DNA from: Abditibacterium sp.
GTDB lineage: Bacteria; Armatimonadota; Abditibacteriia; Abditibacteriales; Abditibacteriaceae
Direction: 5' to 3'
Length of the DNA: 64,000 nucleotides
NCBI GenBank assembly: GCA_030448265.1
Contig: JAUJNG010000001.1
Location: 338,490-402,489, forward strand
Shown here: positions 13,826 to 33,113 of the stretch, piece after piece
How positions within the stretch are numbered: the first letter of the stretch is position 1
Layout: the number at the start of each line of letters is the position of its first letter
Notes under the pieces: generated by a model
The model's input: the letters and a program-made list of their open reading frames with translations, nothing else
Database searches by the model: none
Told to the model about the DNA's origin: nothing
Translations under genes and position numbers: made by a program

Positions 13826-13894
13826 GTGCACTAATTGGCGAAAATTAATGCTCCGAAAAATAAATGTTTAACTTTGGTGCACTCTGGGTATAAT
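13826..13894 (+). promoter_or_regulatory. promoter and candidate GTGCAC operators of regulator A
   Basis: A consensus -10 (TATAAT, 13889-13894) lies 11 nt before the start codon of the regulator at 13906, with a weak TTTAAC at -35 (13867-13872, 16-nt spacer). Two GTGCAC hexamers occur at 13826-13831 and 13877-13882, the second between -35 and -10. The block GGTATAATAGAA and GTGC motifs recur before the paralogous regulator at 25099, which suggests autoregulation. Confidence 0.6.
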
Positions 13895-13905
13895 AGAAAT
13901 ATTCC

Positions 13906-15126: not shown

Positions 15127-15135
15127 CACAAAATT

Positions 15136-15160
15136 GCGGGCCGCTTAACCGGTGGCCCGC
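15136..15160 (+). other. intercistronic hairpin between regulator A and prepilin
   Basis: GCGGGCC (15136-15142) and GGCCCGC (15154-15160) are a perfect 7-bp stem around an 11-nt loop, in the 68-nt gap between the regulator and the first prepilin. There is no T run after it, so it is more likely an mRNA structure than an intrinsic terminator. Confidence 0.45.
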
Positions 15161-15194
15161 CCAGGTAATTCAACTGCAAGAGGAAAATTTAATT

Positions 15195-15992
15195 ATGTTA
15201 CACAACGCAACAAGCACAACAACCAGTCGGCGCGCTAAGGCCCGCCAAGGTTTCACCCTCATCGAACTCTTGGTCGTCATAGCCATTATAGCGATACTCG
15301 CGGCCATTCTCTTCCCCGTCTTTGGACGCGCGCGGGAAAACGCACGGCGCGCTTCGTGCCAGAGCAATCTCAAGCAGATTGGCTTGGGCGTCATGCAATA
15401 CGTGCAGGACTACGACGAGCGTTACCCGCTCAAAGATTATCCGACGGATGTGTCTCCGTGGTTTGGATGGGGCTGGGCGCACTGGATGACAGTGACGCAG
15501 CCTTATCTGAAGAGCACGCAATTGTTTCACTGCCCCAGTTCAAGCAACGCAACGGAATGGACTCAGCGTGGCCCCAGCTACCCCACCGGCATCAGGGTCG
15601 CCGTATATCGTGGCTATGGCGCCAATCGGGAAATTCTGGGCACCTCCACCTCTGAGGTCGGGGCAACGGCGCTGGTCCCATTTATCATGGACTCCCTCGT
15701 GGGTGTGTTCAATCCCCTCGACGGCGACACTATGTGGAGGCGTGTCGTCAACTCTGGTTATTTCAATGGAACCAGTGTCACGAGTCCGCCGTGGGGTGGT
15801 GCTTATAGCGCGCCGATGACGCCGCAGCCTGATCTGGCCCGCCACTTCCAGGGCGTGAACATCGCCTTTGCCGATGGACACGTCAAATACATGACTCAAG
15901 GCCAGTTATGGAAAGACCCCGCCCGCTCTTTAAGGCCCAGGGCGCAACAGTACTTGGTGCCCTTGTCGCCCGCTGACGACCGCTTGAAGTAG
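15195..15992 (+). CDS. H-X9-DG type II pseudopilin/prepilin A1
   Basis: A 265-aa prepilin. The ATG at 15195 is supported by a purine-rich AAGAGGAAAA upstream and by the same start context (ATGTTACAC) in the two paralogues. The leader ends KARQG, cut before [20 protein letters not shown], with the conserved Glu5 of mature pilins; the hydrophobic helix runs into [16 protein letters not shown]. The C-terminal half is variable, with the processing-associated signature [12 protein letters not shown] (His, nine residues, Asp-Gly). These proteins are expected in the inner membrane and assembled by type II secretion or type IV pilus machinery, which is not encoded here. It sits directly behind a sugar regulator. 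Confidence 0.85.
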
Positions 15993-16044
15993 ATTGATCT
16001 TTCTTTGCCATAACCAAGACTGTAACTATAACGGAACCCCAGCG

Positions 16045-16070
16045 CGGCGTGAAACAACTCTCTCACGCCG
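16045..16070 (+). other. post-prepilin hairpin 1 (conserved element)
   Basis: CGGCGTGA (16045-16052) pairs with TCACGCCG (16063-16070) around a 10-nt loop, 52 nt after prepilin A1. Close copies follow the other two prepilins (16947-16980 and 27288-27321). No T run follows, so it is likely an mRNA-stability or attenuation element rather than a full terminator. Confidence 0.6.
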
Positions 16071-16105
16071 TCTGGCGATCCACCTTTAAAGCAACAAGGA
16101 AAATT

Positions 16106-16891
16106 ATGTTACACCTTCTAACAGACGCAACGGCCCCCCAGCGCGGCAGCAAGCGCCAGGGTTTCACGCTCATTGAACTCCTGGTTGTTATTGCTATTAT
16201 AGCAATACTCGCGGCGATTCTGTTTCCCGTCTTCGGACGCGCGCGGGAAAACGCGCGCCGCTCGTCGTGCCAGAGCAATCTCAAGCAGATCGGCCTCGGC
16301 ATAATGCAATATGTGCAGGACTATGACGAGAAGTATCCGACCACTAACGGCAGCCCTGGGTTTGGCGGCGGCTTGGCGGGGCAGTTTGGTCGCTGGCGCA
16401 TGGCGATCTTTCCTTACGTCAAAAGCTCGCAGATTTTCACCTGTCCCTCTTCGCGGGTTGGCGCAGCGAATTCGCTCAACTACAACGGCCCTTCCGGAAC
16501 GGTTTCGTTGCCGAATGCTTACAACTACGGCACCAACGTGAGGGTCATCGGCGATGCAACGGCGGCAGGCGCGATTTCCATCGCGGCGCTCAAAGCGACC
16601 GCGCTGCTTCCGATGGTCGCCGATTCCTCGCCGCTGACGTTCAATTTCGAGTTTTGGCGCGTGATCAACGCCAATCACAACGGCCCTCGGACCGACGGCT
16701 TCCTTCCGCCCACCACGGTCGTGGAAAGCGCCGCGCGTCACCTGAACGGCTCTAACATCTGTTTTGCCGATGGGCATGTCAAGTTCTATCCGCAAGGCGC
16801 GATGGGGCCGGATGCGGCGCGCAGCGGCCAAGCGTCTGCTTTCGACAGATGGAAGTTGCCACTCCGTCCCGAAGACGACCGCGTGCAATAG
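16106..16891 (+). CDS. H-X9-DG type II pseudopilin/prepilin A2
   Basis: A 261-aa tandem paralogue of the gene at 15195. AAGGA lies 5 nt before the ATG. The leader SKRQG precedes [20 protein letters not shown], and the next ~45 residues ([29 protein letters not shown]) are almost the same in all three prepilins of the window. The C-terminal half diverges but keeps [12 protein letters not shown], the H-X9-DG motif, and then [17 protein letters not shown], shared with the prepilin at 26446. The pattern of a fixed assembly end and a variable exposed end suggests different surface or substrate-contact roles. A conserved hairpin follows 55 nt after its stop. Confidence 0.85.
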
Positions 16892-16946
16892 AGCCGCCTG
16901 GTCATTCTTGACCTCCCCTGGAGATTTGTCGCCATAACGGAGACCG

Positions 16947-16980
16947 GACGCGGCGTGAAACATCTGTCTCACGCCGCGTC
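16947..16980 (+). other. post-prepilin hairpin 2 (conserved element)
   Basis: GACGCGGCGTGA (16947-16958) and TCACGCCGCGTC (16969-16980) form a perfect 12-bp stem with a 10-nt loop (AACATCTGTC), 55 nt after prepilin A2. It lies 85 nt before the GH39-like start. It is the strongest of the three copies and also lacks a T run. Confidence 0.65.
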
Positions 16981-17065
16981 TTCGTCTCTGGGGCCGTTGC
17001 CAATGCAGGACGCGACCGAATCGCTTTGCGCGGTCGCCTCGCCAACCTTTCAAACGCCACAACTT

Positions 17066-19624
17066 ATGAATTTCTTGAATCTCTCGTCTCCCCGCCGCAG
17101 GTATTGGCCGCGCTTTGTGTTGCCGACCTTCTTGTTTTTGTCGCCTCACTTCGCCTGCGCCGCAGAACCGGAGCGCGCGGCTGCTCCGATGGCTGGCCTC
17201 ACGGCCAGCGTCGAAACCGGACACCCCGTTCATGTCATCGTGCCAGGCGGTGAAAACAAACTCGCCCTCGTTTTGAAAAACGACACCGCGCAGCCGGTCG
17301 CGGCCACGCTGCACCTGCGCGTCGAGTCGTTCGACGGGAGCGCCCAGACCGAAGCCGTGCCGGTGCGGATTCCCGCGCGGGGCACAATGCGCCACGCCTT
17401 TTCGAAGAAGCTGCTGGGGTCGCTTGGCATCAAGTGGGTCGAATGGCAGTTGGAGCAAGGCGGGCAAAAGAGCGCGGCGCAAAAGCAGTCATTCGTCTAC
17501 ATGAAGCCGAGCGGCCCGACGCCAGGGCGCTCCGAGGGCTTTTTGTTCGGCATCGCCTACGGCGCCTCGCCCGACAACCGCAGCGAGAAAGCCGCGCTGG
17601 CTTCGGCTCTGGCGGGTGTCAAAGTGGTTCGCACCGGCGTCTCGTGGGGCGCGACGCAGCCCAAAGAGGGCGAGTGGAAGTGGGACTTTGGCGACCGCAT
17701 CTTTGAAGTCCACGAGAAGCAGAACATCGAAGTGCAGTTGATCGTGGGCGGCGGCCCCGCCTGGGCCGTTTCGCGGACGCCAGGACCGGAGGAAAACGCC
17801 GGACGCATCCCGCCGCGCCTCGACGCCTGGCGCCCCTGGATTTCGGCGCAGGCCAAACGCTACGGCGACCGCGTGCGCTTCTGGGAAATCTGGAACGAGC
17901 CGGACATCGGCTTCTTCCAGGGCACCACCGCCGAATACCTCGCGTTGCAGCGCGCCGCCTTCGAGGAAATCAAGAAGGTCACTCCCCAAACCACAGTGAT
18001 GACGGGCGGCTTCACCAGCCTCAACCATCACGGGATCAAAAAGGAGATGCTCGAAACCGTGCTGCGCGACGGCCAGGATGCTTTCGAGATGCTGGCCTAC
18101 CACAAGCACGGCCCGTTTCCCGAATTCGCGCGCGAGATGGACACCCAGTTGCTGCCCTTGATGAGAAAGCACGACGCGCTGGACAAGCCGCTTTACTTCA
18201 CCGAGACGGCAATGGACACCCGCTACGGCGAGCAGCACCAAGCCGCGACGCTGGTTAAAAAAGTCGCGTTGGCATGGTCGCGCGGCGCCCGCGCTTACAC
18301 CTGGTTCAATCTGCACGACGACCGGCGCAGCGAGGGCGACCCGCGACGGCCAGGCTACACCTACGGCCTGCTCACGCGCGACGGACAGCCCAAAGCGGTT
18401 TACGCCGCCTACAACGCCCTCACCGCCGCGCTGCGCGACAAGAAGTTCGTCAAACAGTTGGCGCTGCCCGCCGGACAGTGGGGCTTTTTGTTCCAGGACG
18501 AGGCCGAACAGGTCATCGTGGCCTGGAACGAGGACGCGGCGCAGAGCGGCTCGCATCTGGTGCTGGAAACCGACGCCACAGCAGTCGCGGCGCGCGACAT
18601 GATGGGCAACGAGGGAAGCAGGGGGCTGGTGGCGAATCGCGCGCTGCTGCAAATCGGCGAGACGCCGCATTATCTGGTGCTGCGCGGCGCGCGGCGCGAG
18701 CCGAAACTGGCGGGCGCTTTAGCGGCGCCGTCGGGAACTTTCAACGCCATCCCTGGCCAAACGCTGCAAATCGGGACTGAATTGAGCAATCCGCTGCCAA
18801 CAGCGCAGAACTTCGCCGTGGCGTGGAGCCTGCCGCAAGCGTTGGGCGGCGGCACGGGGCAGCGCACGGTCGCGGTGGCGCCGCAAAGCCGCGTGCGCGT
18901 GCCCATCGCGGTGCCGGTGCCTGCCGCTTTGAAGGCGAAATATGGCGATGTCGAAATGGTGGCGGTGCGCTACGAGGTCGCGGGCACGCCGTGGAACGGC
19001 ACACTGCGAGTTCCGGTGACCGCCGGTGTGGTGATGATCCCGCGCGGCGACTTCGGACAGTGGACGTTCAGCCTCGAACGCCAGGAGCAGGTCATCAACC
19101 TGCGCGAAGCCGATCCCAACTCCGACCACCTGCTGTGGAAGGGCCGCGACGACCTGAATGCCAAAGTGTGGCTGGCCCACGACGGTCAGGCGTTGAAATT
19201 AAAAGTCCTCGTCGTTGATGACATCGCTTCAGCAGCGACCGGCGAGAAACCGTGGGAGGGCGACAGCGTGCAGTTCGCGCTGCAAGGCCCAGGACAAACC
19301 GGCGCCTGGCAAGTGGCTCTGTCCGATGTGAACGGCCAGCCAAGGGCGCAAGTCGTGGAAACGCCGCAGGGCCTTCAGGCGCAGGCGAAGGACATCGGCC
19401 TCAAGATCGAGCGCAAGGACGCCCAGCGCACCTACGAAGTGACGCTGCCCGATGCGAAGTTTGGTCTGACGCCTCAAGTTCTGTCGCAGGGCGTGCGCTT
19501 CAACCTGCTGGTCAACGACAACGACGGCGCGGGCCGCAAGGGCTGGCTGCAAATCGCGCCTGGCCTGGGCCGCGAATTTGACCCGACCTCGTTCCCCTTG
19601 CTGGTGAGCCAGCCCGCGAAATGA
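17066..19624 (+). CDS. secreted GH39-like glycosidase A1 with CBM9-like C-terminus
   Basis: An 852-aa protein when started at ATG 17066, which opens a signal peptide (PRRRYWPRFVLPTFLFL... cleaved near HFACA). An N-terminal beta-sandwich of ~140 residues is followed by a TIM barrel with RFWEIWNEPDIGF (acid/base Glu278) and PLYFTETAMD (nucleophile Glu380), the GH39/clan GH-A pattern. A short beta-domain and a CBM9-like domain follow (DHLLWKGRDDLNAKVWLAHD, WEGDSVQFALQGPG). GH39 members act on xylose- or iduronate-containing glycans; with sulfatases nearby an iduronidase-like role is possible but unproven. The stop overlaps the next start (ATGA). The long 5' leader carries the conserved hairpin. 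Confidence 0.7.
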   Translation: MNFLNLSSPRRRYWPRFVLPTFLFLSPHFACAAEPERAAAPMAGLTASVETGHPVHVIVPGGENKLALVLKNDTAQPVAATLHLRVESFDGSAQTEAVPVRIPARGTMRHAFSKKLLGSLGIKWVEWQLEQGGQKSAAQKQSFVYMKPSGPTPGRSEGFLFGIAYGASPDNRSEKAALASALAGVKVVRTGVSWGATQPKEGEWKWDFGDRIFEVHEKQNIEVQLIVGGGPAWAVSRTPGPEENAGRIPPRLDAWRPWISAQAKRYGDRVRFWEIWNEPDIGFFQGTTAEYLALQRAAFEEIKKVTPQTTVMTGGFTSLNHHGIKKEMLETVLRDGQDAFEMLAYHKHGPFPEFAREMDTQLLPLMRKHDALDKPLYFTETAMDTRYGEQHQAATLVKKVALAWSRGARAYTWFNLHDDRRSEGDPRRPGYTYGLLTRDGQPKAVYAAYNALTAALRDKKFVKQLALPAGQWGFLFQDEAEQVIVAWNEDAAQSGSHLVLETDATAVAARDMMGNEGSRGLVANRALLQIGETPHYLVLRGARREPKLAGALAAPSGTFNAIPGQTLQIGTELSNPLPTAQNFAVAWSLPQALGGGTGQRTVAVAPQSRVRVPIAVPVPAALKAKYGDVEMVAVRYEVAGTPWNGTLRVPVTAGVVMIPRGDFGQWTFSLERQEQVINLREADPNSDHLLWKGRDDLNAKVWLAHDGQALKLKVLVVDDIASAATGEKPWEGDSVQFALQGPGQTGAWQVALSDVNGQPRAQVVETPQGLQAQAKDIGLKIERKDAQRTYEVTLPDAKFGLTPQVLSQGVRFNLLVNDNDGAGRKGWLQIAPGLGREFDPTSFPLLVSQPAK

Positions 19625-22266
19625 AAAACACCATGAAAATTCTCAACCTCTCCGCTCCAGCCGCGCTGCTGCCGCTCGTGATGGCGGCGACGGGCGGCAT
19701 CGCCTGCGCGCAAAAAGCGCCCGCGCCCGCCGCGCCAGGTCAAACGCGCGCCGCTTCCGCGCTGGAACAGGTCACGGCCTCAGTCGAAACCGGCGACGAA
19801 ATCCGTTTCGTGCGCCCCAACGAATTGAACAAAGCCGTGCTGGTCTTGAAAAACACGGGCAAAACGCCGGTGCGCGCCCAACTTTCTTTTGGCCTCAAGG
19901 AACGCTCCAACGCTTCGGTGCCGCTCGCGTCGGCGGGCCAGATCGAGATTGCAGCGGGCGGCGAGATGCGTCAGCCGTTGACCGCGCAGCAAATCGGGCC
20001 GCGTCTGGGCATCAAATATGTGGACTGGCAACTGTCGCAGGGCGGGCAGAGCGCGAGCGGGCACGCTTCGTTCGCGGTGTTGAATCCCGTCGGCGTTACG
20101 CCTGGCGTGCAGGAGGGGCGTTTCATCTTTGGCAACGCGGGTGTGCGCGGCTACTGGCCGTTGGAGTTGAAAGAAAGCCTGATTCGCGCGGCGACGATGG
20201 TGGGCGCGGAGTCGCTGCGAACCGGCTCCGACTGGCGCATTTTGCAGCCCGCGCCGAACGAATATAAATGGGCGGGCGAGGACGAGATGGTGGCGCTGAC
20301 CGCAAAATACGGCGCGCAGGTGCAGTATCTGTTCGCTTACGGCGGCGCGGAGTGGACGAAAAGCCCCGAAACGCTGCTCCGCGTCGCGCAGAACAAGGAC
20401 GAAAAATCCCAGTGGCGCTACCCGCCGCGTCTGGAACCCTGGCGCAATTGGGCGCGCACGCTGGCCACGCGCTATAAAGGCCAGATTCGCTACTACGAGA
20501 TCTGGAACGAGCCGGACATCGCGTTCTTTAAGGGCACGGCAGAGCAGTATCTGGAACTGCTCAAGGCAGCCCATCAGGAAATTAAAGCGGTCGATCCAAA
20601 CGCCATCGTGCTGACCGGCGGCTTCACCAGCGTGAACCACCATAGCTACAAGCGCGACCTTCACGAACTCACGCTCCGCGAAGGCCAGCCCTTCTTCGAC
20701 CTGCACGCTTACCATCGCCACGGCGCTTTCGCGCAACTCCAGCAGGAAGTGGATGACCAACTCATTCCGCTGCGCCAGAAGTTTGGCGTGAAGGAGCCGC
20801 TCTACTTCAACGAGACGGCGATGGGCCGCGAATACGAGCGCGAGTATGAAATGGCCGTCGAAGTGCCCAAGCGACTCGCCTTCGTCTGGTCGCGCGGCGC
20901 GGTAGGCTATCACTACTTCACGATCTGGGCGCGGAAGGACGAAGCCTCGTCGGCGACGAACTACCGGATGTTGAACCACGACTTTTCGCCGCGTCCGGCG
21001 TGGGTGGCCTACAACGAGATGTCGCGCGTGCTGCGGGGCCGCCAGTTCTCGCACGAGTTGAAGCTGGGCGCGGGACGCTGGGGCTTCGCCTTCGGTGGCA
21101 AAGGCGACTTCGCGGGCGATGACGCCAACGACTATGCGCTCGTCGCCTGGACGGAAGACGCCGCTTCAGCCGACGCGCCCACGGTGCTGAACGTAGGGGC
21201 GGGCGCGACGGCGCGCGTCGTGGATTTGATGGGCAACAGCACGCCCGTCCCAGTGAGTGCGGGTCGCCTGGTGTTCAACGTGCGGCGCGAACCGCAATAT
21301 CTGGTGATTGACAACGCCGCGACCAGACCGATGCCGCAGGGCGCGCTGCTCGAAGTGGAGCGGCCTGGAGCCGTGGTGCCAGGCGGCGCGCAGACCTTGC
21401 GGGTGCGGCTTCGCAACCCGCTCGACACGCCCCAAAGCGTGCGATTGACGTGGAAGGTGCCCGCACCGCTCTCCTCAAGCGCGCCGCTCACCTGGGAGCA
21501 ACGCATTCCCGCCAACGGCGAGGCCACCGCGACGCTGCCGATCTCGCTGCCGGTGGGAACGCAAAGCAGCACCGCGCCGCAACAGGTGACGGCGACTTAC
21601 AGCGTGGGCGACACCGCGCTGAGGGCCGAAGCCGCGATTCCGGTTCTGACGGGCGTTCGCATTCCGGCGGGCGATTTCGGAGCGCGTCCCGCCGACTTTT
21701 CGCTGCAAAGCGCGGGCGATGTGGTGAACACCAACGACATCGACCCGCAGACCATGCACCTGACGTGGAAAGGCCCGCAGGATTTGAGCGCGCGAGCGTG
21801 GCTGGGACGCGGCCAAAACGCGCTGCGATTGCGCTTTGAAGTGCGCGACGACGCGGCGCGCCAACCTTACGCGGGCAAGGAGATGTGGCAGGGCGACAGC
21901 ATTCAGATGGCGCTCGCCGTGCCAGGACAGGACGGCTCGTTCGAGATCGGTCTGGCGCGCGGCGACAACGGGCGCTCCGCCGTGCATTCGTGGAGCAGCC
22001 CGCGCGGTTTCAAGGGCGGCGAGATCGTCAGCGCCGTCAAGCTGCAAACGCAGCGTCAGGGCGACCTCACCATCTACGAGGCGACGCTGCCTTATGCAGC
22101 GCTGGGCCTGAGCGATGAGCAGTTGAAGCAGGGTGTTCGCTTCTCCTTCGTGGTCAACGATCTCGACGACGCGAAAGCGACGGCGCGTGAAGGCTATCTC
22201 CGCCTCAGCGACGGCTTGGCGACGCAAAAGGACACGCTGCGCTTCCCGACGGTCGTCCTCGACTGA
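19621..22266 (+). CDS. secreted GH39-like glycosidase A2 with CBM9-like C-terminus
   Basis: An 881-aa paralogue of the preceding gene, coupled to it by ATGA. The signal peptide is MKILNLSAPAALLPLVMAA...IACAQ; two in-frame ATGs (19621 and 19633) lie close together. The beta-sandwich contains QIGPRLGIKYVDWQLSQGGQ. The barrel has YYEIWNEPDIAF (Glu297 acid/base) and LYFNETAMG (Glu398 nucleophile). The C-terminal CBM9-like domain has DLSARAWLGRGQNALRLRFE and MWQGDSIQMALAVPGQD. Its N-terminal domain and CBM9-like end are much closer to the gene at 28984 than its barrel is, pointing to recent duplication or gene conversion. Substrate unknown. Confidence 0.7.
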   Translation: MKNTMKILNLSAPAALLPLVMAATGGIACAQKAPAPAAPGQTRAASALEQVTASVETGDEIRFVRPNELNKAVLVLKNTGKTPVRAQLSFGLKERSNASVPLASAGQIEIAAGGEMRQPLTAQQIGPRLGIKYVDWQLSQGGQSASGHASFAVLNPVGVTPGVQEGRFIFGNAGVRGYWPLELKESLIRAATMVGAESLRTGSDWRILQPAPNEYKWAGEDEMVALTAKYGAQVQYLFAYGGAEWTKSPETLLRVAQNKDEKSQWRYPPRLEPWRNWARTLATRYKGQIRYYEIWNEPDIAFFKGTAEQYLELLKAAHQEIKAVDPNAIVLTGGFTSVNHHSYKRDLHELTLREGQPFFDLHAYHRHGAFAQLQQEVDDQLIPLRQKFGVKEPLYFNETAMGREYEREYEMAVEVPKRLAFVWSRGAVGYHYFTIWARKDEASSATNYRMLNHDFSPRPAWVAYNEMSRVLRGRQFSHELKLGAGRWGFAFGGKGDFAGDDANDYALVAWTEDAASADAPTVLNVGAGATARVVDLMGNSTPVPVSAGRLVFNVRREPQYLVIDNAATRPMPQGALLEVERPGAVVPGGAQTLRVRLRNPLDTPQSVRLTWKVPAPLSSSAPLTWEQRIPANGEATATLPISLPVGTQSSTAPQQVTATYSVGDTALRAEAAIPVLTGVRIPAGDFGARPADFSLQSAGDVVNTNDIDPQTMHLTWKGPQDLSARAWLGRGQNALRLRFEVRDDAARQPYAGKEMWQGDSIQMALAVPGQDGSFEIGLARGDNGRSAVHSWSSPRGFKGGEIVSAVKLQTQRQGDLTIYEATLPYAALGLSDEQLKQGVRFSFVVNDLDDAKATAREGYLRLSDGLATQKDTLRFPTVVLD

Positions 22267-22283: not shown

Positions 22284-23414
22284 ATGTTTCTGCTTGACCA
22301 CGACGCACTCGACCAGGCTCGCCGGCATCTTCCCGAAGATTCTCCGGCAGTGGAGCGGCTGCGCGCCGACGCGAGAGCCGCGCTGGGGCAGCCGCTCCAC
22401 AGCGTGCTGGATAAGCCGGTCGTGCCGCCCAGTGGCGACAAGCACGATTATTTCAGCCTGGGACGCTACTGGTGGCCGAATCCCGAAACGGCGGACGGTC
22501 TTCCCTACGTCCGGCGCGACGGCCAGACCAATCCCAGCACCGATCAGGGCGACAGCGTGGCGCTGGGCGGGTTCGCCAGGGGTGTCGAAACGCTGACGCT
22601 GGCCGCCTTTTTCGAGGGTAACCACGGTTATGCCGAAAACGCGGCGCGGCGCATCCGCACCTGGTTTTTGGCGCCCGAAACCCGCATGAACCCGCATCTG
22701 AACTATGCACAGGCCATCCCAGGCATTTGCGAGGGACGCGGCATCGGCATCATCGACACCGTGACGCTGCGGTTCCTGCCGGACATGGCGCATCTGCTCG
22801 CGCAGATGGGCGCGTTGTCATCGAGTGAAATTGAGGCTCTGCAACACTGGTTTGCCGCTTACGCGCAGTGGCTGCTCACTTCGGAAAACGGGCTGAACGA
22901 GGCAGGACAGCACAACAATCACGGCAGTTGGTTCGACGCTCAAGCGGCGTTGTTCTCGCTGTTCGCCGCACAAAGCGAGACTGCGGCGGCGATTTTAAGC
23001 GACGTTCCAGAGCGCCGTTTCAAACCGCAGATCGCGCCCGACGGCTCGCTGCCGTTTGAACTGGCGCGCACCCGCTCCTACTCTTACACGCACTACAATC
23101 TGGGCGCCCTCGCGGATTGTGCTGCCTTAGCCCAACGGGTCGGCAAAGACCTGTGGAATTGGGCCGATGAGCAAGGCCGCAGCCTACGCGCCGTTTTTGA
23201 ATGGTGCCTGCCCTACGGCGGCGGCTACGACCCAGAAATCTGGCCGCATCCCCAAATCACGCCGGACGGCGGGGAGCGGCTGCGGACTCAACTGCGCCGC
23301 GCCCAACGGGTTTACGGCGCCGATGGCCTCGATCCCCAACGGTTTGCGGGGCATGAAGACGAGCGCTGGAACCTGCTTTATCCGGTTCCTGCCTCAGTAA
23401 GGAACTCACCATGA
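22284..23414 (+). CDS. alginate-lyase-family (PL5-like) protein
   Basis: A 376-aa all-helical protein matching the alginate lyase domain (alpha/alpha toroid). Diagnostic segments: KHDYFSLGRYWWPNP (residues ~53-67), the catalytic-site block NNHGSWFDAQ (211-220) and ELARTRSYSYTHYNLGAL. Family members cut uronic-acid polysaccharides by beta-elimination. There is no signal peptide from this start (MFLLDHDALDQ), so it either acts on imported oligosaccharides or the start is misplaced; no upstream in-frame start with a hydrophobic leader is evident in the 17-nt gap. The stop overlaps the sulfatase start (ATGA). Confidence 0.75.
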   Translation: MFLLDHDALDQARRHLPEDSPAVERLRADARAALGQPLHSVLDKPVVPPSGDKHDYFSLGRYWWPNPETADGLPYVRRDGQTNPSTDQGDSVALGGFARGVETLTLAAFFEGNHGYAENAARRIRTWFLAPETRMNPHLNYAQAIPGICEGRGIGIIDTVTLRFLPDMAHLLAQMGALSSSEIEALQHWFAAYAQWLLTSENGLNEAGQHNNHGSWFDAQAALFSLFAAQSETAAAILSDVPERRFKPQIAPDGSLPFELARTRSYSYTHYNLGALADCAALAQRVGKDLWNWADEQGRSLRAVFEWCLPYGGGYDPEIWPHPQITPDGGERLRTQLRRAQRVYGADGLDPQRFAGHEDERWNLLYPVPASVRNSP

Positions 23415-24853
23415 AAAGGTCTCTCACCACAGCCGAAAGGGGGCCAACAACTTCAATCAATCGCCGCCGTTTTCTGGGCGGGAGCGCCGGTTTCGCCGCA
23501 GGATTGATGCTCGGCGGTCTCTCCGCTCGCGGACTGGCTCAAATCAAATCTGATTCGCGTCGGGGTGGACGCCAGCCCAACATCCTGCTCATCACGGCGG
23601 ACGATCTGGGCATTCAACTTTCGTGCTATGGCTTCGGGCAAATCCAGACGCCGCATCTCGACGCTCTAGCGGCCCAGGGCACACGCTTCGCCAACGCTTA
23701 CGTGACGCAGCCTTCGTGCAGCCCGTCGCGCTCCTCGATTTTCACCGGACTTTACCCGCACCAGAACGGGCAACTTGGCCTTTCGCATCGCGGCTTTCGG
23801 ATGCATAAAGGCTTGACCCAGAAGGCGTTTCCCACGCTGCTCAAAGCGGCAGGCTATCGTTCCGGCGTGCTGGGCAAGATTCACGTTGACCGCGACGAGC
23901 GTTTCGACTTCGACTGGCGGCCCGACTACAAAAAGATGCTCGAAGGCGAATCGCGCAACGTTCAGGCGATGGCCGCCGAGGGCGGCAAGTGGATGCGCGA
24001 AGGCGGCGACCAGCCGTTCCTGCTGATGATGAACTACCTCGACCCGCACGATCCTTTGCTGCCCCAGTTCAACGGGCTGCCCCGCGAGGTGATTCAAGCC
24101 AAGGACGTGAAACCGTTGCCCTGGGCCGGTGGCAAGCAGGATGAGAAGTTGAACGAGCGCACCGCCGACTTCTTCAACTGCGTCAAGCGGCTCGACGAGG
24201 GCATCGGCCTGTTGATGGCCGAACTGGAAAAGTCCGGTCTGGCGGACAACACCGTCGTGATTTTCCTGGGCGATCACGGCGCGCCGTTCACGCGCGGCAA
24301 GCTCGAATGCTATGAGAGCGGGCTTCAGGTGCCGTTTCTGGTGCGGATGCCCCGCGCACCGCGCAATCAGGTGCGCGAAGAGTTCATCTCGACCGTGGAC
24401 ATCGTGCCGACGCTGCTCGACATCGCGGGCGTTCCAGGCAGTGCCATGGCTCAGGGCGTCACCGGACGCTCGCTCGCGCCCATAGTGCGCGGGGAAAAGG
24501 TGAGGAATTGGCGCACCCAGGTCTTCGGCGAGATGAATTTTCACGGCCCAAACGTGTTGCGCCCGATGCGTAGCGTGCGCGAAGGCCGCTGGAAGCTCAT
24601 CCACAACATCGAGCCGACCGACCGCGCGACATGGCTGCTCTTTGATCTGCAAAACGATCCCTACGAACGCACCAACCTCGCCGGCCAACCCCAACACGTC
24701 GCAACCTTGAAGCGGCTGCAAAACGCGCTGCTGTCGTGGCGCCAACAGACGGGTGATCCCATTCTCGACCCCAAAATTCTGGCACAGTGGCAGGCCTCGC
24801 ACCAGAAGTGGAAGGAGAAAAACGTCATCCCGACGGAAGATCAAATCGCATGA
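23411..24853 (+). CDS. Tat-exported Cys-type sulfatase (S1 family)
   Basis: A 480-aa sulfatase. A Tat signal (NRRRFLGGSAGFAAGLML) precedes the alkaline-phosphatase-fold domain. Metal residues are seen in ITADDLG (Asp64, Asp65), and the nucleophile motif CSPSRSSIFTG gives Cys103, which must be oxidised to formylglycine. FLGDHGAPF is the second metal site. S1 sulfatases hydrolyse sulfate esters on carbohydrates. It is most like the sulfatase at 35009 (same PSCSPSRSSI, LYPHQNG and GDHGAPF blocks). It closes module A, and a GH39 fragment starts 26 nt after its stop. Confidence 0.85.
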   Translation: MKRSLTTAERGPTTSINRRRFLGGSAGFAAGLMLGGLSARGLAQIKSDSRRGGRQPNILLITADDLGIQLSCYGFGQIQTPHLDALAAQGTRFANAYVTQPSCSPSRSSIFTGLYPHQNGQLGLSHRGFRMHKGLTQKAFPTLLKAAGYRSGVLGKIHVDRDERFDFDWRPDYKKMLEGESRNVQAMAAEGGKWMREGGDQPFLLMMNYLDPHDPLLPQFNGLPREVIQAKDVKPLPWAGGKQDEKLNERTADFFNCVKRLDEGIGLLMAELEKSGLADNTVVIFLGDHGAPFTRGKLECYESGLQVPFLVRMPRAPRNQVREEFISTVDIVPTLLDIAGVPGSAMAQGVTGRSLAPIVRGEKVRNWRTQVFGEMNFHGPNVLRPMRSVREGRWKLIHNIEPTDRATWLLFDLQNDPYERTNLAGQPQHVATLKRLQNALLSWRQQTGDPILDPKILAQWQASHQKWKEKNVIPTEDQIA

Positions 24854-25007: not shown

Positions 25008-25087
25008 GTGCACTTTATTGTGCAAGGTGCGAAAAAATAAGTGCACAAAAAATTCAATGTTTGAATTTTGTGCCTAATGGGTATAAT
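25008..25087 (+). promoter_or_regulatory. promoter and candidate GTGCAC operators of regulator B
   Basis: A consensus -10 TATAAT (25082-25087) lies 11 nt before the ATG at 25099, with TTTGAA (25060-25065) as a weak -35. GTGCAC occurs at 25008-25013 and 25041-25046, with variants TTGTGCAA (25018-25025) and TTGTGCC just before the -10. The -10 context GGGTATAATAGAA is identical to that at 13889. A shared operator class read by both regulators is the simplest view. Confidence 0.6.
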
Positions 25088-25098
25088 AGAACTACACC

Positions 25099-26328: not shown

Positions 26329-26445
26329 CGTCAAGTGGAGCGTGAACACCGCTGCCGTAGCTCCCAACGTCTCGCTGTGAGATATTGAGGGGTCAATTCA
26401 TTAGCGATCCACCAAAGGTGGTTCCAGCCGAGAAGGAAATTTCTT

Positions 26446-27237
26446 ATGTTACACAACACAACACACCGTCAGCGAGGCACCATCCGCCAGGGCTTTACTC
26501 TCATCGAACTTCTTGTCGTCATAGCCATAATAGCGATCCTCGCCGCGATTCTGTTCCCCGTCTTCGGGCGGGCACGCGAGAACGCGCGGCGCTCGTCGTG
26601 CCAGAGCAATCTCAAGCAGATCGGCCTGGGCGTCATGCAATACGTGCAGGACTATGATGAGAACTATCCAATCAACGGCGACAATCCCAGACCGCCTGGT
26701 TGGGTGGGTAACCAGTTTTCCTTCTGGATTCTGCGCACTCATCCATATATCAAGAGTGTGCAACTCTACGGGTGTCCCAGTTCGCCAAACGAGAACAATT
26801 ACACCGTGGCCGGTGGGGGAACAACGTTAACGGGGAAATTTGGCACTTATAACTATGGCGCTAATGAAGCAGTTCTTCGCACGTGGAACACGACGGCTGC
26901 GACTCCCCCGACTCCCGTTTCTGTAGCCGCCATCGGCGCTACGGCGTTGTTGCCGATGATCGCCGATTGCACCGGTTGGATTACCGGCACCGGCAACCTC
27001 TACCGTATCATCAACGCCAGTGATAGGAGTATTGGTTGGGATGCGGCAGGCCATAATGCCACTAAAGTAGGAGAAGACCGTCACCTTGGCGGCTCTAACA
27101 TCGCCTTCGCTGACGGGCACGTCAAGTTCTATCCGCAAGGCGCGATGGGGCCGGATGCGGCACGCATCGCGGCGAGGAGACCGACCCCTTACTCCTTCAA
27201 GCTGCCCATTCGCATCGACGATGACCGTTTGAAATAG
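26446..27237 (+). CDS. H-X9-DG type II pseudopilin/prepilin B1
   Basis: A 263-aa prepilin, 117 nt after regulator B. AAGGA lies before ATGTTACAC, as in the paralogues. The leader ends TIRQG, cut before [20 protein letters not shown]; the conserved [19 protein letters not shown] block follows. The C-terminal region is different from the A copies except for [12 protein letters not shown] (H-X9-DG) and [17 protein letters not shown]. Its position between a sugar-responsive regulator and a secreted GH13 repeats the order of module A. The conserved hairpin follows 50 nt after the stop. Confidence 0.85.
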
Positions 27238-27287
27238 AGCCGGTTGGCCAGTCTAAGGCCTTCTCTCGTCGCCAGAGCGGAGATCCA

Positions 27288-27321
27288 GACGCAGCGTGAA
27301 ACACCTGTCTCACGCCGCGTC
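27288..27321 (+). other. post-prepilin hairpin 3 (conserved element)
   Basis: GACGCAGCGTGA (27288-27299) and TCACGCCGCGTC (27310-27321) form a 12-bp stem with one A-C mismatch and a 10-nt loop. It lies 50 nt after prepilin B1 and 110 nt before the GH13 start. Loop and stem match the copy at 16947, and preceding bases (GCGGAGAYC) are partly shared. Confidence 0.65.
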
Positions 27322-27431
27322 GCCGTCTTTAGGCCGAGGGAGAGCCGCTTCTCGCCTCAGCAACAAGGGGCGTCCAAAACGTCGTTTTGATGCGGGACGC
27401 GGCCCATTCACCCCTACAGCACGAATCTCCC

Positions 27432-28964
27432 ATGCTTGAAAATCTCACTGCGTTTAAAACCGGCCTTGTGGCCGCAGTTCTCTCGACGGCTGCGCTGTCC
27501 CCTCCGGCGACCGGCGCCGAGGCGTTTTCGCTGCCCGCCCAGGCGCCCATCGGCCCTTCCTGGGCGCGCGGCGCGGTGCTGTATCAACTCAATCCGCACA
27601 ATTACACGCCCGAAGGCACCCTCGCCGCCGCTCAAAAGCACCTGCCGCGCCTGGCGAAGTTGGGCGTGGATGTGGTGTGGCTGATGCCCGTCCACCCGCG
27701 CGGGCAGATGAAGCCGCGCAGCGAGTTTCTGCGCGCCAACGGCGGCGCCTCGCCGGTTCCCATCCCCGAAGCGCAACGCGACACCGAGTTTCGCGGCAAC
27801 CCCTACTGCCCGCGCGACCACACCCAGATTGACCCGCTCCTGGGCGATTTCGCCGACTTGAAGCGCTTCACCAACGAGGCGCACGCGCTGGGCCTCAAAG
27901 TGATGCTCGACTGGGTGCCCAACCACACCAGCTGGGATTCACCATTACTGGCACAGCACCCCGACTGGTATCTGCGCGACACGGAGAACCGCGTGAAGTT
28001 CCACGCGCCCTGGGAGCCGATTGCCAGACTCAGCTACGCCAAGCGCGACTCCGGCCTGTGGGAATATATGCTGGCGGCGCGCCGCAAATTCGTGGAAGAA
28101 GGCGGTGTGGACGGCTTCCGCGAGGATGTGGCCGGAAAAACGCCGCTCGAACACTGGAACTGGCTGCGGCCCCGCCTCGACCCCGACAACCGGCTGCTGA
28201 TGCTGGCCGAAGCCGACGAGACGGAACTATTGGGGCCGCTCGATATGGTCTATGACTGGGAGCTACCGGCGGTTTACTGGCGCGTTCTCGACGGCGGCGA
28301 ACCGGCGACCATCATTGACGATGTGTTGCGCCAGCAACACGCCAAGGCACCGGTAGGCGGCGCCTATCTGCGCTATCTGTTCAACCACGACCAGACCGGC
28401 GCGGCGCGCAGCCACTACCACGCGCGCTTCATCATCGAGCGCATCTACGGCGCTCAGGACGGCCCCACCGTGCCGCGCCACCCCGAAAAATTCGGCGTGG
28501 CGCTGCCCGCGCTGCACGTGCTGAACGCGACCCTGCCTGGCGGACGCGCACTGGTCTTCATGGGCCAGGAAGTCGGCTTTTACGGTGGGATTCCGCACAA
28601 TCGCGTTCAGGGCTTCAAGATTCCCTTCGACACGCCGCCCTCGCCCGCACTGCCCGATTTTTACCGCGACGTTGCGGCCTTGTGCGCTCGTGCGGCGATC
28701 TACGGCGGGAGTTTTCGCAAGCTCGCCACCGCGCGAGACGACGAGGTTTACGCCTTCGAGCGCGAGTTGGATGGCGAGCGCGTCATCGTGGCGGCCAACC
28801 TCTCCAAAACCCAGGCGCAGCCCGTGACGCTGCCCACCGGCACGACGCGCGGTTTGGTGGACGCCACACCGTCACTCGACGGCCAGCCGCGCGACGCCAC
28901 CGCGCGTGACAATTTCGATTTACCCGCCGGAGATTACCGCGTTTTCGCAACTCCACTTCGTTAA
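27432..28964 (+). CDS. secreted GH13 alpha-amylase-family protein
   Basis: A 510-aa protein; the ATG at 27432 opens a signal peptide (MLENLTAFKTGLVAAVLSTA...TGAEA). All four GH13 regions are visible: region I DWVPNHTS, region II GFREDVA with nucleophile Asp232, region III LMLAEAD with acid/base Glu260, and region IV FNHDQ with Asp320. The barrel is followed by a short C-terminal beta domain. The enzyme should act on alpha-glucosidic bonds; subfamily and substrate are not clear. It replaces the first GH39-like gene of module A in the equivalent position. The downstream GH39-like gene starts 19 nt later. Confidence 0.85.
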   Translation: MLENLTAFKTGLVAAVLSTAALSPPATGAEAFSLPAQAPIGPSWARGAVLYQLNPHNYTPEGTLAAAQKHLPRLAKLGVDVVWLMPVHPRGQMKPRSEFLRANGGASPVPIPEAQRDTEFRGNPYCPRDHTQIDPLLGDFADLKRFTNEAHALGLKVMLDWVPNHTSWDSPLLAQHPDWYLRDTENRVKFHAPWEPIARLSYAKRDSGLWEYMLAARRKFVEEGGVDGFREDVAGKTPLEHWNWLRPRLDPDNRLLMLAEADETELLGPLDMVYDWELPAVYWRVLDGGEPATIIDDVLRQQHAKAPVGGAYLRYLFNHDQTGAARSHYHARFIIERIYGAQDGPTVPRHPEKFGVALPALHVLNATLPGGRALVFMGQEVGFYGGIPHNRVQGFKIPFDTPPSPALPDFYRDVAALCARAAIYGGSFRKLATARDDEVYAFERELDGERVIVAANLSKTQAQPVTLPTGTTRGLVDATPSLDGQPRDATARDNFDLPAGDYRVFATPLR

Positions 28965-28983
28965 GAATGAAAAATAGGACACC

Positions 28984-31617
28984 ATGAAAATAGTCAACCT
29001 TTCCACTCAAGCCGCGCTGCTGCCGCTCGTGATGGCGGCGGCAAGCGGTATGGCCTGCGCGCAAAACGCACCCACCCCCGCCGCGCCAGGTCAAACGCGC
29101 GCGCTTTCCGCGTTGGAACAAGTCACGGCTTCAGTCGAAACCGGCGACGAACTGCATTTCGTGCGCCCCAATGAGCTGAACAAAGCCGTGCTGGTCTTGA
29201 AAAACGCGGGCAAAACTCCGGTGCGCGCCCAGCTTTCTTTTGGCCTCAAGGAACGCTCCAACGCTTCGGTGCCGCTCGCGTCGGCGGGCCAGATCGAGAT
29301 TGCAGCGGGCGGCGAGATGCGTCAGCCGTTGACCGCGCAGCAGATTGGCCCGCGTCTGGGCATCAAATATGTGGACTGGCAGCTCGCGCAAGGTGGCCAA
29401 AATGCGAGCGGGCACGCTTCGTTCGCCGTCCTCAATCCGGTCGGCGTCACGCCTGGCGTGGCGGGTGGCTTCGTCTTTGGCAACGCGGGGCTGCGCCATA
29501 ACTGGAATCCCGCCCAGAAAGAGCGTGTGATTCGCGCGGCGACGATGGTGGGAGCCGAATCGGTGCGCGCCGACACCGACTGGAATAACGTGCAGCCCCG
29601 CCCCGATCAGTGGAACTGGAAACCGCTCGACGAAACCGTCGCGCTGCTCGATAAATACGGCGCCGAGTGGCAGAACCTGGTCGCTTATGGCGGGCTGGAG
29701 TGGACGAAAAGCCCCGAAACAACGCAACTCATCAAAGAGCGCGGCGACGAGAAGCAGCAGTGGCGCTACCCGCCGCGCATGGATGCGTGGCGTCCCTGGG
29801 TGCGGGCGCAGGCGCAGCGCTACAAGGGCCGCGTGCGCTTCTACGAAATCTGGAATGAGCCGGATTTCCCGTTCTGGAAGGGCACGCCGGAGCAGTATCT
29901 CGAACTGCTCAAAGCCTCCTACCAGGAGATCAAAGCAGTTGACCCCAATGCAATTGTGATGACCGGCGGTTTCGCTTCGATGATTCATCGCCTCAACAAT
30001 CCCAAGGTGCTGGAACTCACGCTGAGTGAAGGCGAGCCTTACTTCGATATGCTGGCTTACCACAAGCACAGTTCGTTCCGCACCTTGCGCGAGGAAGTCG
30101 AGGATCGGCTGCTGCCGATGATGCGGAAATACAACGTGGATAAACCGCTCTACTTCAATGAGACGGCGATGAGCCGCGGTTACGAGCGCGAATACGATCA
30201 GGCCGTCGAACTGCCCAAGCGCCTGGCGCTGGTGTGGGCGCGCGGCTCGCGTGGCTACCACTACTTTAACATCTGGAATCGCGCCGACGAGAGCAGCTCG
30301 GCGGCGGGCTACAACATGGTGAACCCCGATTTTTCGCCGCGTCCGGTGTGGGTGGCCTTCAACGAGATGTCGCGGGTGTTGCGGGGCCGCGAGTTCTCGC
30401 ACCAGCTTGATCTGGGAGCGGGCCGCTGGGGTTTTGCCTTCGGTGGCAAGGGCGACTTTGTGGGCGACGACGCCAGGGATTACGCGCTGCTCGCCTGGAC
30501 GGAAGACGCGGCTCTGGCCGACGCGCCCACGGTGTTCAACGTGGGCAACGGCGCGACGGCGCGCGTGGTTGACCTGATGGGCAACACTTCGCCGCTGCCG
30601 GTGAGCGAGGGGCGCCTGCTCTTCACCGTGACGAATGAGCCGCAATATCTGGTGATTGAGAACGCCGCCACCAAACCGGTGGCGCAGGGCGCGCTGCTCG
30701 AAGTGGGACGCGCCGGAGCCGTGGTGCCAGGCGGAACGCAGACCTTGAGGGTGCGGCTTCGCAACCCGATGGGCACGCCGCAGACCGCGCGCCTGACGTG
30801 GAGCGTGCCCGCCTCGCTGGTAGCACGCTCGCCGCTGACGGTTGAAAAGCAGATTCCCGCCGGTGGCGAAACCGAAGCGACGCTGCAAATCGCGCTGCCA
30901 ACCGGCCAGACGGACGCCGCGACGCCCGCGCAGCCGGTGACGGCGACACTGCGCCTGGGCGAAACCGGCCTCGCGGGGCAGGCGGCGATTCCCATCAGCG
31001 TGGGCGTTCGCATCCCTGCGGGCGACTTCGGGGCACGCGCCGCCGACTTTTCGCTGCAAAGCGCCGCCGACATCATGAACACCAACGACATCGACCCCGC
31101 AACCAACCACCTGACGTGGAAAGGGCCACAAGATTTGAGCGCCCGCGCGTGGCTGGGACGCGGCCAAGGTGCGCTGCGCCTGCGCTTCGAGGTGCGCGAC
31201 GACGTGCAGCGCCAGCCACACGGAGGCAAGGATTTGTGGCAGGGCGACAGCATCCAGATGGCGCTCGCCGTGCCAGGCCAGGACGGCTTCTTTGAAATGG
31301 GCCTATCGCGCGGGGACAAGGGACAGCCGCTGGTGCATTCGTGGAGCACGCCGAGCGGCTTCAACGGTGGCGCCCTCGTCAGGGCGGTCAAGCTGCAAAC
31401 GCAGCGTCAGGGCGACCGCACCATCTACGACGCAACGCTGCCCTACGCGGCGCTGGGCCTGAGCGATGAAGCATTGAAGCAGGGCGTGCGCTTCTCCTTC
31501 GTGGTGAACGACCTGGATGTAACCAACGACACGGTGCGCGAAGGCTATCTCAAGCTCAGCGACGGCATTGCGGGCGACAAGGACACCACGCGCTTCCCGA
31601 CGGTGGTGCTGGATTGA
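28984..31617 (+). CDS. secreted GH39-like glycosidase B1 with CBM9-like C-terminus
   Basis: An 877-aa protein, closest to the gene at 19621. Signal peptide MKIVNLSTQAALLPLVMAA...MACAQ. The beta-sandwich is almost the same as in 19621 (LKERSNASVPLASAGQIEIA). The TIM barrel has FYEIWNEPDFPFWKG (acid/base Glu292) and LYFNETAMSRG (nucleophile Glu393). The CBM9-like end has DLSARAWLGRGQGALRLRFE. Barrel residues near the active site differ (DFPFWKG against DIAFFKG), which could change substrate preference. The stop TGA overlaps the TTG start of the sulfatase (TTGA), so the pair is translationally coupled. Confidence 0.7.
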   Translation: MKIVNLSTQAALLPLVMAAASGMACAQNAPTPAAPGQTRALSALEQVTASVETGDELHFVRPNELNKAVLVLKNAGKTPVRAQLSFGLKERSNASVPLASAGQIEIAAGGEMRQPLTAQQIGPRLGIKYVDWQLAQGGQNASGHASFAVLNPVGVTPGVAGGFVFGNAGLRHNWNPAQKERVIRAATMVGAESVRADTDWNNVQPRPDQWNWKPLDETVALLDKYGAEWQNLVAYGGLEWTKSPETTQLIKERGDEKQQWRYPPRMDAWRPWVRAQAQRYKGRVRFYEIWNEPDFPFWKGTPEQYLELLKASYQEIKAVDPNAIVMTGGFASMIHRLNNPKVLELTLSEGEPYFDMLAYHKHSSFRTLREEVEDRLLPMMRKYNVDKPLYFNETAMSRGYEREYDQAVELPKRLALVWARGSRGYHYFNIWNRADESSSAAGYNMVNPDFSPRPVWVAFNEMSRVLRGREFSHQLDLGAGRWGFAFGGKGDFVGDDARDYALLAWTEDAALADAPTVFNVGNGATARVVDLMGNTSPLPVSEGRLLFTVTNEPQYLVIENAATKPVAQGALLEVGRAGAVVPGGTQTLRVRLRNPMGTPQTARLTWSVPASLVARSPLTVEKQIPAGGETEATLQIALPTGQTDAATPAQPVTATLRLGETGLAGQAAIPISVGVRIPAGDFGARAADFSLQSAADIMNTNDIDPATNHLTWKGPQDLSARAWLGRGQGALRLRFEVRDDVQRQPHGGKDLWQGDSIQMALAVPGQDGFFEMGLSRGDKGQPLVHSWSTPSGFNGGALVRAVKLQTQRQGDRTIYDATLPYAALGLSDEALKQGVRFSFVVNDLDVTNDTVREGYLKLSDGIAGDKDTTRFPTVVLD

Positions 31618-33113
31618 ACGAATCAGAAACCATCACGCGCCGTCAGTTCGTGCAAGCCACCGGCGCCGCTTTGCTCGGCGCGACGGCGGCGAGCGCGGCA
31701 CCGCCTCAAACCAGGCCCATGAACCCAACTCCATCCAACGGGCAACGGCGCCCAAACATTTTGCTCCTCACCGCCGACGACATCGGCTGGCAGACGGTGG
31801 GCTGCTACGGCTGCACCACGCCTGGCACCACGCCTCATCTCGACGCCTTCGCTGCCTCGGCCCTGCGTTTCGAGCGGGCGCACGTCACCCAGGCGGTGTG
31901 CGTGCCCAGCCGCACCTCGATGCAGACGGGCCGCTACCCGCACCGCTACTGGGGCGAAGTAGATTCCTCCGGCAAGCCAGGCTACGGCGTGCGGCCCGAC
32001 GTGCCGACTTTGCCCGAAGCGTTGCAACGCGCCGGTTATTTCACGGCGATGCTGGGCAAAGTCACCCATCACGCGCCGTCCGCGAAGTTCCCCTGGGACG
32101 TGGCCATCAACCACTGGGATTGGGAGCGGCTGCGCTACGCGCGCGACCCGCAAGCTATCGGGCAACTCACCAGTGAGATCATCGGGCAGGCGAGCGCGGC
32201 AAAGCAGCCTTTTTATCTGGTGGTCAACAGCGCCGACCCGCATCGCCCCTTTCCTGGCACCGAAAAGCCGAGAGAAGGTCAGGGCGGGCCGTTTCCCGAC
32301 CCGTCGCGCACCTACCGACCCGATGAAGTCGCGGTGCCCAACTTTTTGCCCGACCTGCCCGACGTGCGGCGCGAATACGCCCAATATCTGAGCGGCGTGC
32401 GCCGCGCCGACGACGCCATCGGTGCCGCGCTGCGCGCGCTGCGCGAATCGGGCCAGGAAGAAAATACCATCGTGATTTTCCTTTCCGATCACGGCAGCCC
32501 GTTCCCCTTCGCCAAAGAGAACTGCTACCTTGCCAGCACCAAAACGCCGCTGATGGTGCGCTGGCCCCGCGTGACGCGCGCGGGCGGCGTGGAACGCGAG
32601 CATTTCGTCTCTGGGGTTGATCTGCCCGCGACGATTTTGGAAGCGTGTGGTCTGCCGGATTTACCCGAAAGCGACGGATTTTCGTTTGGCCCGCTGCTGC
32701 GCGGACAAAAGCAGGCGGGGCGCGAGCAGGTGGTGACGGTGTTTCATCACACGCCAGGGCACGCGGCGATGCCAATGCGCGGCTTGCTGAGCGGGCGCTA
32801 CGGCTACGTTTACAACGCCTGGGCCAACGGCGAAGAGGGTTACGCTCCTGGAGATCCGTTTGGCGGTCTGACCTGGAACGCGATGCGCGAAGCCGCCAAA
32901 ACCGACCCGCAAGTGCAACGGCGCGTCGATTTTTGCCTCCGCCGCACGCCCGAAGAGCTTTACGACTACGAGGCCGATCCCAACGCCCTGAACAACCTCA
33001 TCGCCGCGCCGCAACTGGCCGAAGTCGCGCGGCAGATGCGAAGCGAACTGCTGGGCTGGATGGGGCGCAAGCAAGACCCACTGCTCGCTCAATACGAGCC
33101 GCTCTCGCGCTGA
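31614..33113 (+). CDS. Tat-exported Cys-type sulfatase (S1 family)
   Basis: A 499-aa sulfatase starting at a TTG that overlaps the GH39-like stop; the Tat motif TRRQFVQATGAALLG follows at once, supporting this start. LLTADDIGW carries the first metal-binding Asp pair and CVPSRTSMQTG gives the formylglycine Cys96. FLSDHGSPF is the second metal site. The C-terminal subdomain ends with the common DYEADPNALNNL signature. Most similar in the window to the sulfatase at 38230 (both have NVxRRADxA-type segments, SDHG[SM] and DLPATILEACGLPD-like blocks). Substrate unknown. Confidence 0.85.
   Translation: MNESETITRRQFVQATGAALLGATAASAAPPQTRPMNPTPSNGQRRPNILLLTADDIGWQTVGCYGCTTPGTTPHLDAFAASALRFERAHVTQAVCVPSRTSMQTGRYPHRYWGEVDSSGKPGYGVRPDVPTLPEALQRAGYFTAMLGKVTHHAPSAKFPWDVAINHWDWERLRYARDPQAIGQLTSEIIGQASAAKQPFYLVVNSADPHRPFPGTEKPREGQGGPFPDPSRTYRPDEVAVPNFLPDLPDVRREYAQYLSGVRRADDAIGAALRALRESGQEENTIVIFLSDHGSPFPFAKENCYLASTKTPLMVRWPRVTRAGGVEREHFVSGVDLPATILEACGLPDLPESDGFSFGPLLRGQKQAGREQVVTVFHHTPGHAAMPMRGLLSGRYGYVYNAWANGEEGYAPGDPFGGLTWNAMREAAKTDPQVQRRVDFCLRRTPEELYDYEADPNALNNLIAAPQLAEVARQMRSELLGWMGRKQDPLLAQYEPLSR

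Follow-up and report, generated by a model that had tools for sequence, protein, structure and literature searches.

The locus raises the question of why type IV pilin-like genes follow a sugar-responsive repressor and precede secreted glycosidases. The window (the whole stretch of DNA analysed, 64 kb) contains two neighbouring gene groups on the + strand, built on a common plan and forming a tandem duplication (Table 1). The order in each is an AraR-type (GntR-LacI) regulator, one or more H-X9-DG/DUF1559 prepilins, a hairpin, secreted glycosidases and a Tat sulfatase. Regulator and first prepilin are separated by 69 bp in module 1 and by 118 bp in module 2; module 1 has two prepilins and module 2 has one. 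Further sulfatases follow 3' of module 2. A LacI-type regulator without a prepilin was also noted at 41335-42453, inside a sulfatase-rich stretch (31.6-58 kb) with many consecutive sulfatases.

Table 1. Coordinates of the features of the two modules (window numbering) and the evidence for each.
Feature	Position	Strand	Evidence
Two GTGCAC palindromes 5' of the module 1 regulator (probable; putative operators of an autoregulated operon promoter)	13826..13882	+	
Module 1 GntR-LacI (AraR-type) regulator, 406 aa	13906..15126	+	Pfam GntR 46.8 bits, Peripla_BP_3 52 bits
Module 1 first H-X9-DG/DUF1559 prepilin	15195..15992	+	N_methyl, SBP_bac_10 and TIGR04294 above cut-off
Post-prepilin hairpin copy 1, GGCGTGAAACAACTCTCTCACGCC	16046..16069	+	sequence match
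Module 1 second H-X9-DG/DUF1559 prepilin	16106..16891	+	profile matches above cut-off, AlphaFold2 model
Post-prepilin hairpin copy 2	16952..16975	+	fold z-score -4.8
Secreted GH42/GH39-like glycosidase, weak C-terminal CBM9-like match	17066..19624	+	GH42 26.2 bits (above cut-off), signal-like N-terminus
Secreted GH39-like glycosidase copy 1	19621..22266	+	GH39 28.9 bits
Alginate-lyase-family enzyme (PF05426)	22284..23414	+	278 bits
Module 1 Tat sulfatase	23411..24853	+	PF00884 177 bits; RRRFLGG leader
Two GTGCAC palindromes and related GTGCA repeats 5' of the module 2 regulator, then TATAAT	25008..25046	+	
Module 2 GntR-LacI (AraR-type) regulator, 409 aa	25099..26328	+	profile match
Module 2 H-X9-DG/DUF1559 prepilin	26446..27237	+	profile matches above cut-off
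Post-prepilin hairpin copy 3	27293..27316	+	fold z-score -3.0
Secreted GH13-like enzyme (alpha-amylase catalytic domain and Malt_amylase_C)	27432..28964	+	56 bits
Secreted GH39-like glycosidase copy 2	28984..31617	+	similarity to copy 1
Module 2 Tat-type sulfatase	31614..33113	+	PF00884 158 bits; TRRQF leader

Profile searches agreed with the sequence-only reading on three kinds of gene. Both regulators (13906 and 25099) combine a GntR helix-turn-helix with a LacI-type sensor domain, which is the AraR architecture; all three H-X9-DG prepilins (15195, 16106 and 26446) matched N_methyl, DUF1559 and TIGR04294 above cut-off; and the sulfatases at 23411 and 31614 gave Sulfatase/SGSH_C matches with twin-arginine leaders. 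The CBM9-like ends that had been assigned to the glycosidases were not recovered beyond a single sub-threshold CBM9_1 match (19.6 bits, cut-off 23.4) on the glycosidase at 17066..19624, for which the GH39 match (22.3 bits) was also sub-threshold. The alginate-lyase-family enzyme carried no signal-like N-terminus by the heuristic used. That two blocks repeat one plan was borne out for the regulators, which are 80% identical in amino acid sequence and 83% in DNA over 1.3 kb, and for the GH39-like glycosidases (74% amino acid identity, DNA similarity 79%). It did not extend to the remaining enzymes, which are not copies: the alginate-lyase-like enzyme is particular to module 1 and the GH13-like enzyme to module 2, and the sulfatase at 23411 is 31% identical to that at 31614 and 42% identical to another at 35009.

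Across the 43 contigs of the genome (4.95 Mb), the searches gave 69 DUF1559 matches, 35 LacI-type sensor domains, 14 GntR helix-turn-helix domains and 62 sulfatase-domain matches. A regulator and a prepilin were taken as paired where the nearest same-strand prepilin started no more than 600 bp from the sensor-domain match. A same-strand prepilin was found downstream of 25 of the 35 LacI-type regulators, against 0.15 expected under uniform placement (binomial p about 6e-52 on that assumption), and the pairs include both plain LacI and GntR-LacI architectures. Neighbourhoods were taken as the stretches around all prepilins; genes were called with a simple codon-usage finder, so gene starts are approximate. 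Downstream of paired prepilins (52 proteins compared), families GH39, GH10, GH2, GH42, GH43 and GH95 were found together with apiosidase, alginate lyase, CBM and sulfatase families. Downstream of unpaired prepilins (51 proteins) lay mostly diverse metabolic or uncharacterised genes, with few carbohydrate-active exceptions. A co-directional sulfatase was present within 12 kb of 7/25 paired and 3/44 unpaired prepilins, and the sulfatase is therefore locus-specific and outside the invariant core. The constant core is a regulator, a prepilin and a secreted CAZyme, in an order that recurs about 25 times in the genome. Of the plan first proposed, the regulator, prepilin and glycosidase thus stand genome-wide, and the sulfatase belongs to 7 of 25 modules.

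The hairpin GGCGTGAAACANCTNTCTCACGCC (at most one mismatch) lies 54-61 bp 3' of all three window prepilins, and the two copies that were folded gave the z-scores listed in Table 1. No further copy was found in 908 kb of the genome with four substitutions allowed. Fold z-scores below -3 were obtained 3' of 30% of 60 paired prepilins, compared with 42% of other intergenic stretches; the post-prepilin hairpin is real in the window and is not a general feature of the modules.

Several irregular loci were recorded in the same genome. An apparent regulator-prepilin fusion at G000:C42:9294-11087 (L059:2442-4235) was rejected, as a frameshift near the regulator end joins both frames; the frameshift represents an assembly error or a damaged LacI regulator. 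Three tandem unpaired prepilins at G000:C15:78890-82310 are each followed by near-identical sequence stretches. Sulfatase matches split over two frames or interrupted by a stop were found at G000:C5:169757-170777, C13:117009-117849, C15:24274-25273 and C25:70038-70874, and are broken genes or assembly errors.

The palindrome GTGCAC occurs 4 times in the 64 kb, against 20 expected from shuffles, and all four sites lie as pairs in the two regulator promoters (13826 and 13877; 25008 and 25041). TATAAT-like elements adjoin the pairs, with the module 1 -10 element at about 13891-13896. In 908 kb of the genome the palindrome was found 35 times. Judged by placement, the pairs look as would be expected of autoregulatory operators and are treated as candidates. 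One operator motif common to all modules was sought and rejected: palindromes exceeded those in shuffles, yet no common motif emerged. Probably each regulator has its own operator, or the palindrome excess consists of ordinary hairpins.

Related genomes were examined for GntR/LacI genes beside prepilins, as had been proposed at the outset, and the adjacency recurs there with adjoining CAZymes. Within the genus (G001), 30/76 regulators have a prepilin within 350 bp; within the family (G002) the count is 2/18 at 350 bp and 4/18 at 400 bp. In an order-level (G003) and a class-level (G004) relative one regulator each was examined, and both are paired (1/1 and 1/1); so is the best LacI-type regulator, taken one per genome, in 18/27 further genomes of the phylum. 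Pairing was found in 13 family-level groups, and the random placement of prepilins in relatives that would have counted against the coupling was not observed. For a comparison beyond the phylum, 18 genomes were reached via named prepilin loci, mostly from Planctomycetota, Verrucomicrobiota and Lentisphaerota, with two labelled Omnitrophota; one was a phylum member already sampled (G079 is G011), leaving 17. Among these prepilin-bearing genomes tight pairing was found in one (Omnitrophota-labelled) and a looser pairing, 502 bp, at one Verrucomicrobiota locus, a comparison that serves as a contrast and no census because three sampled loci have little downstream sequence or few regulators. Of the named prepilin loci, 73 include some upstream sequence, and in 10 of these a LacI-type regulator lies directly 5', one of them a short fragment match (L157). 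Named relatives show the orders regulator-prepilin-GH42, regulator-prepilin-GH71 and regulator-prepilin-GH2, and the closest named prepilin relatives are Armatimonadota, probably the phylum of this genome. The genes are thus coupled in order, recurrence, conservation through the phylum and CAZyme context. An order that recurs about 25 times in the genome and across the phylum gives strong support to the proposal of a sugar-regulated degradation operon with the prepilin as a member.

The usual sugar-capture proteins are scarce around these regulators. Seven SBP_bac_1 proteins were found genome-wide, the nearest 27 kb from a LacI-type regulator (SBP_bac_8, Peripla_BP_4 and others lay outside this search), and two TonB plug domains, the nearest at 10.8 kb; neither domain occurs within 10 kb of a LacI-type regulator anywhere in the genome. 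No SusC/SusD pair was found in the locus and no SBP_bac_1 solute-binding protein adjoins the regulator. Other bacteria place a sugar-binding protein or SusCD in this operon position.

The reading favoured here, at close to an even chance and a little short of it, is that these are inducible glycan operons composed of a repressor, one or more dedicated pilins and secreted enzymes, with the pilin as a glycan-contacting surface element. The LacI-type or GntR-LacI repressor would control itself, one or two type IV-like pilins and secreted enzymes, and the enzymes of each operon would serve one glycan class. Sugar would free the repressor, and pilin and enzymes would then be made together. The pilin, with its conserved N-terminal assembly helix and fast-diverging head, would be processed by a shared prepilin peptidase and assembled by one pilus-type machine encoded elsewhere; its head would contact, hold or draw in polysaccharide while the enzymes cut. 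It would fill the operon position of the usual sugar-capture protein. Of these steps, co-transcription, repression by the regulator, fibre assembly, glycan binding and retraction are what we infer. The arrangement suggests that these bacteria make a separate pilin for each type of glycan eaten.

Comparison with described systems places the modules between several of them. Like AraR of Bacillus and other LacI-GntR sugar operons, they have a self-regulated sugar-sensor repressor before degradation genes and palindromic operators (here candidates); unlike them, a pilin and not a solute-binding protein or permease comes next after the regulator. Bacteroidota SusCD PULs likewise unite a regulator, a surface capture element (here a putative one) and secreted CAZymes or sulfatases in one locus, whereas the present loci have no SusCD pair and none of the two TonB plugs of the genome. 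The DUF1559 (SBP_bac_10)/H-X9-DG paralogues of Planctomycetota belong to the same protein family at comparable copy number: 68 in Planctopirus limnophila (PMC10632474) and 74 in Rhodopirellula baltica (PMC2754498), against 69 here. In those papers the function of DUF1559 is limited to a putative solute-binding label and no link to a regulator is reported (PMC10632474, PMC2754498). Unlike in the present phylum, a LacI-type regulator is hardly ever adjacent to a prepilin in those genomes of Planctomycetota and Verrucomicrobiota that were tested. Pili-like fibres of Planctopirus limnophila and Gemmata obscuriglobus bind dextran (PMC5394234), and these polysaccharide-binding, pilus-like fibres of DUF1559-rich bacteria may be taken, by analogy, as the nearest experimental precedent, although the fibre protein was not identified there and no link to regulated CAZyme operons was made. 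The cellulose-binding Pil-family proteins of Ruminococcus albus are type IV pilin-like and implicated in polysaccharide adhesion (reviewed in PMC4300822), but form one pil locus, not one pilin per CAZyme operon. In R. albus 7 the pil locus is not cellulose-induced.

No description of the regulator-prepilin-CAZyme arrangement was found by word searches of the open-access literature, which is weak evidence of novelty because most subscription journals lie outside such searches. In several bacterial phyla the DUF1559/H-X9-DG prepilins make up one of the largest paralogous families, and the papers found give them no function. Their slot behind a sugar-responsive repressor and ahead of secreted glycosidases offers a concrete, testable role in polysaccharide use for part of the family, and a possible answer to how substrate is captured by glycan degraders that have few ABC binding proteins and hardly any TonB receptors. 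The regulator-prepilin pair can be used as a marker for such loci in the phylum.

Machinery able to assemble a pilin was found in the genome. It encodes two PilT-family ATPases (482 and 428 bits, above cut-off), a PilB-like ATPase (621 bits, just under the 675.65 cut-off), a PilC/GspF-like protein (404 bits, below the equivalog cut-off) and a PilD-like gene recognised by sequence without a family match, as well as TadA-type and GspE-like ATPases and several secretins, including GspD-like ones. A type IVa pilus gene set (PilB, PilT, PilC, prepilin peptidase and secretin) is present by these matches. An operon at G000:C26:94101-102904 (L053) contains PilT, PilC/GspF, a prepilin-peptidase-like gene, a DUF1559-type prepilin, three other pilin-like genes and a 1313-aa gene, and is likely to encode the putative shared assembly machine for the window prepilins. 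The two PilT ATPases, and a DUF1559-type pilin encoded alongside PilT, PilC and PilD in one operon, somewhat favour a type IV pilus.

The main rival sees the prepilin as a substrate-specific pseudopilin belonging to a type II secretion-like system and co-produced with the enzymes whose passage through the outer membrane it would assist. Since GspE-like ATPases and GspD-like secretins are encoded in the genome, the pilin may have a role in secretion; its N-terminus has a resemblance to GspG as well, and signal-like N-termini were found in 14/18 genes after paired prepilins against 38% of background, with a similar count after unpaired prepilins (21/29). Type II systems normally export many substrates with one pseudopilin set encoded beside the machine, and we know of no case in which each operon has a major-type pilin of its own. 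Furthermore, the adjoining sulfatases use Tat leaders and could be periplasmic, the two PilT ATPases suggest a retractable pilus, and the head is strongly variable, unlike that of GspG. A pseudopilin of this kind is on balance unlikely.

The window prepilins have the type III leader/N-methylation motif GFTLIE (TIGR02532, 34.9-35.7 bits, cut-off 16.3) and the C-terminal H-X9-DG motif (TIGR04294, 27.5-29.6 bits, cut-off 19), in which H, D and G are nearly invariant in 64 relatives; cysteines 36 and 94 of the mature protein are invariant in 64 sequences. They reach the cut-off of none of the pseudopilin families GspG to GspK, with 32-34 bits for GspG (cut-off 88.85) and about 29 bits for GspH (cut-off 80). 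The mature 16106..16891 prepilin was modelled with AlphaFold2 using 64 relatives, giving a model of mean pLDDT 74 in which a long N-terminal helix carries a beta-rich head, part of it a low-confidence stretch. The sole credible Foldseek neighbours of the model were type IV pilins, and weak ones (probability 0.91 and 0.85; E-values above 0.1). A carbohydrate-binding fold was considered for the head and rejected on this result. Aromatic or Trp enrichment was looked for in the heads of paired prepilins, and there was none.

The head of the module 2 prepilin is about 38% identical to that of the second module 1 prepilin, against 93-97% for the N-terminus. Gene conversion of the N-terminus was rejected: identity at four-fold sites is 0.44-0.48 within the genome and never above 0.9, and the N-terminus is therefore conserved at the protein level. 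In the window, dS is about 1.1 for the prepilin N-terminus and 0.42 for the regulators. On this ground the window prepilins may be older paralogues or may have been swapped in; the heads align poorly. Co-evolution of regulator and prepilin was likewise rejected (Mantel r = 0.01 for regulator against head distance, 61 pairs), and regulators 75-82% identical carry heads 25-37% identical. Instead of grouping in a clade, paired prepilins are spread over the prepilin tree (18 label changes against 19.9 in shuffles). A close fit between pilin and regulated substrate is therefore not visible; the prepilin slot is conserved and its occupant is changing.

These results bear on a second alternative, in which the pilin serves attachment or biofilm formation in general. 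Sugar cues would switch between its variants, and it would help the cell to settle on a particle with no specific binding of the operon's own glycan. The lack of regulator-prepilin co-variation, the scatter of paired prepilins on the tree and heads without aromatic enrichment are all in its favour, but keeping a pilin for each CAZyme operon, at least 25 of them, would be costly for such a function, and this alternative is considered quite improbable. In a third alternative the genes lie side by side only because one ancestral regulator-prepilin pair was duplicated again and again, and they have no functional link today. This fits the tandem duplication in the window but is very improbable, since paired regulators span LacI and GntR-LacI architectures and are mostly less than 40% identical to one another, the prepilin and regulator trees are incongruent, pairing persists over 13 family-level groups while the prepilin changes, and unpaired prepilins of the same genome have no such link.

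The reading of inducible glycan operons with a glycan-contacting pilin can be taken further, to a pilin-based counterpart of the PUL in which every glycan operon has its own regulated pilin, one retractable machine is shared and the glycan-capturing face of the pili is switched with the sugar at hand. This fuller form is possible but doubtful.

Among the sequences sampled, three loci labelled Akkermansia muciniphila (L134, L144 and L145) come from genomes of about 6 Mb, and the label is ill-fitting. The label of L117 and L125 (Actinomycetota bacterium F1-80-MAGs103) is also ill-fitting, as that genome gives the same match as the phylum member G011. In another phylum member (G031, family group f25), a first look gave 216 candidate LacI-type sensor domains in 5.8 Mb, an exceptional number.
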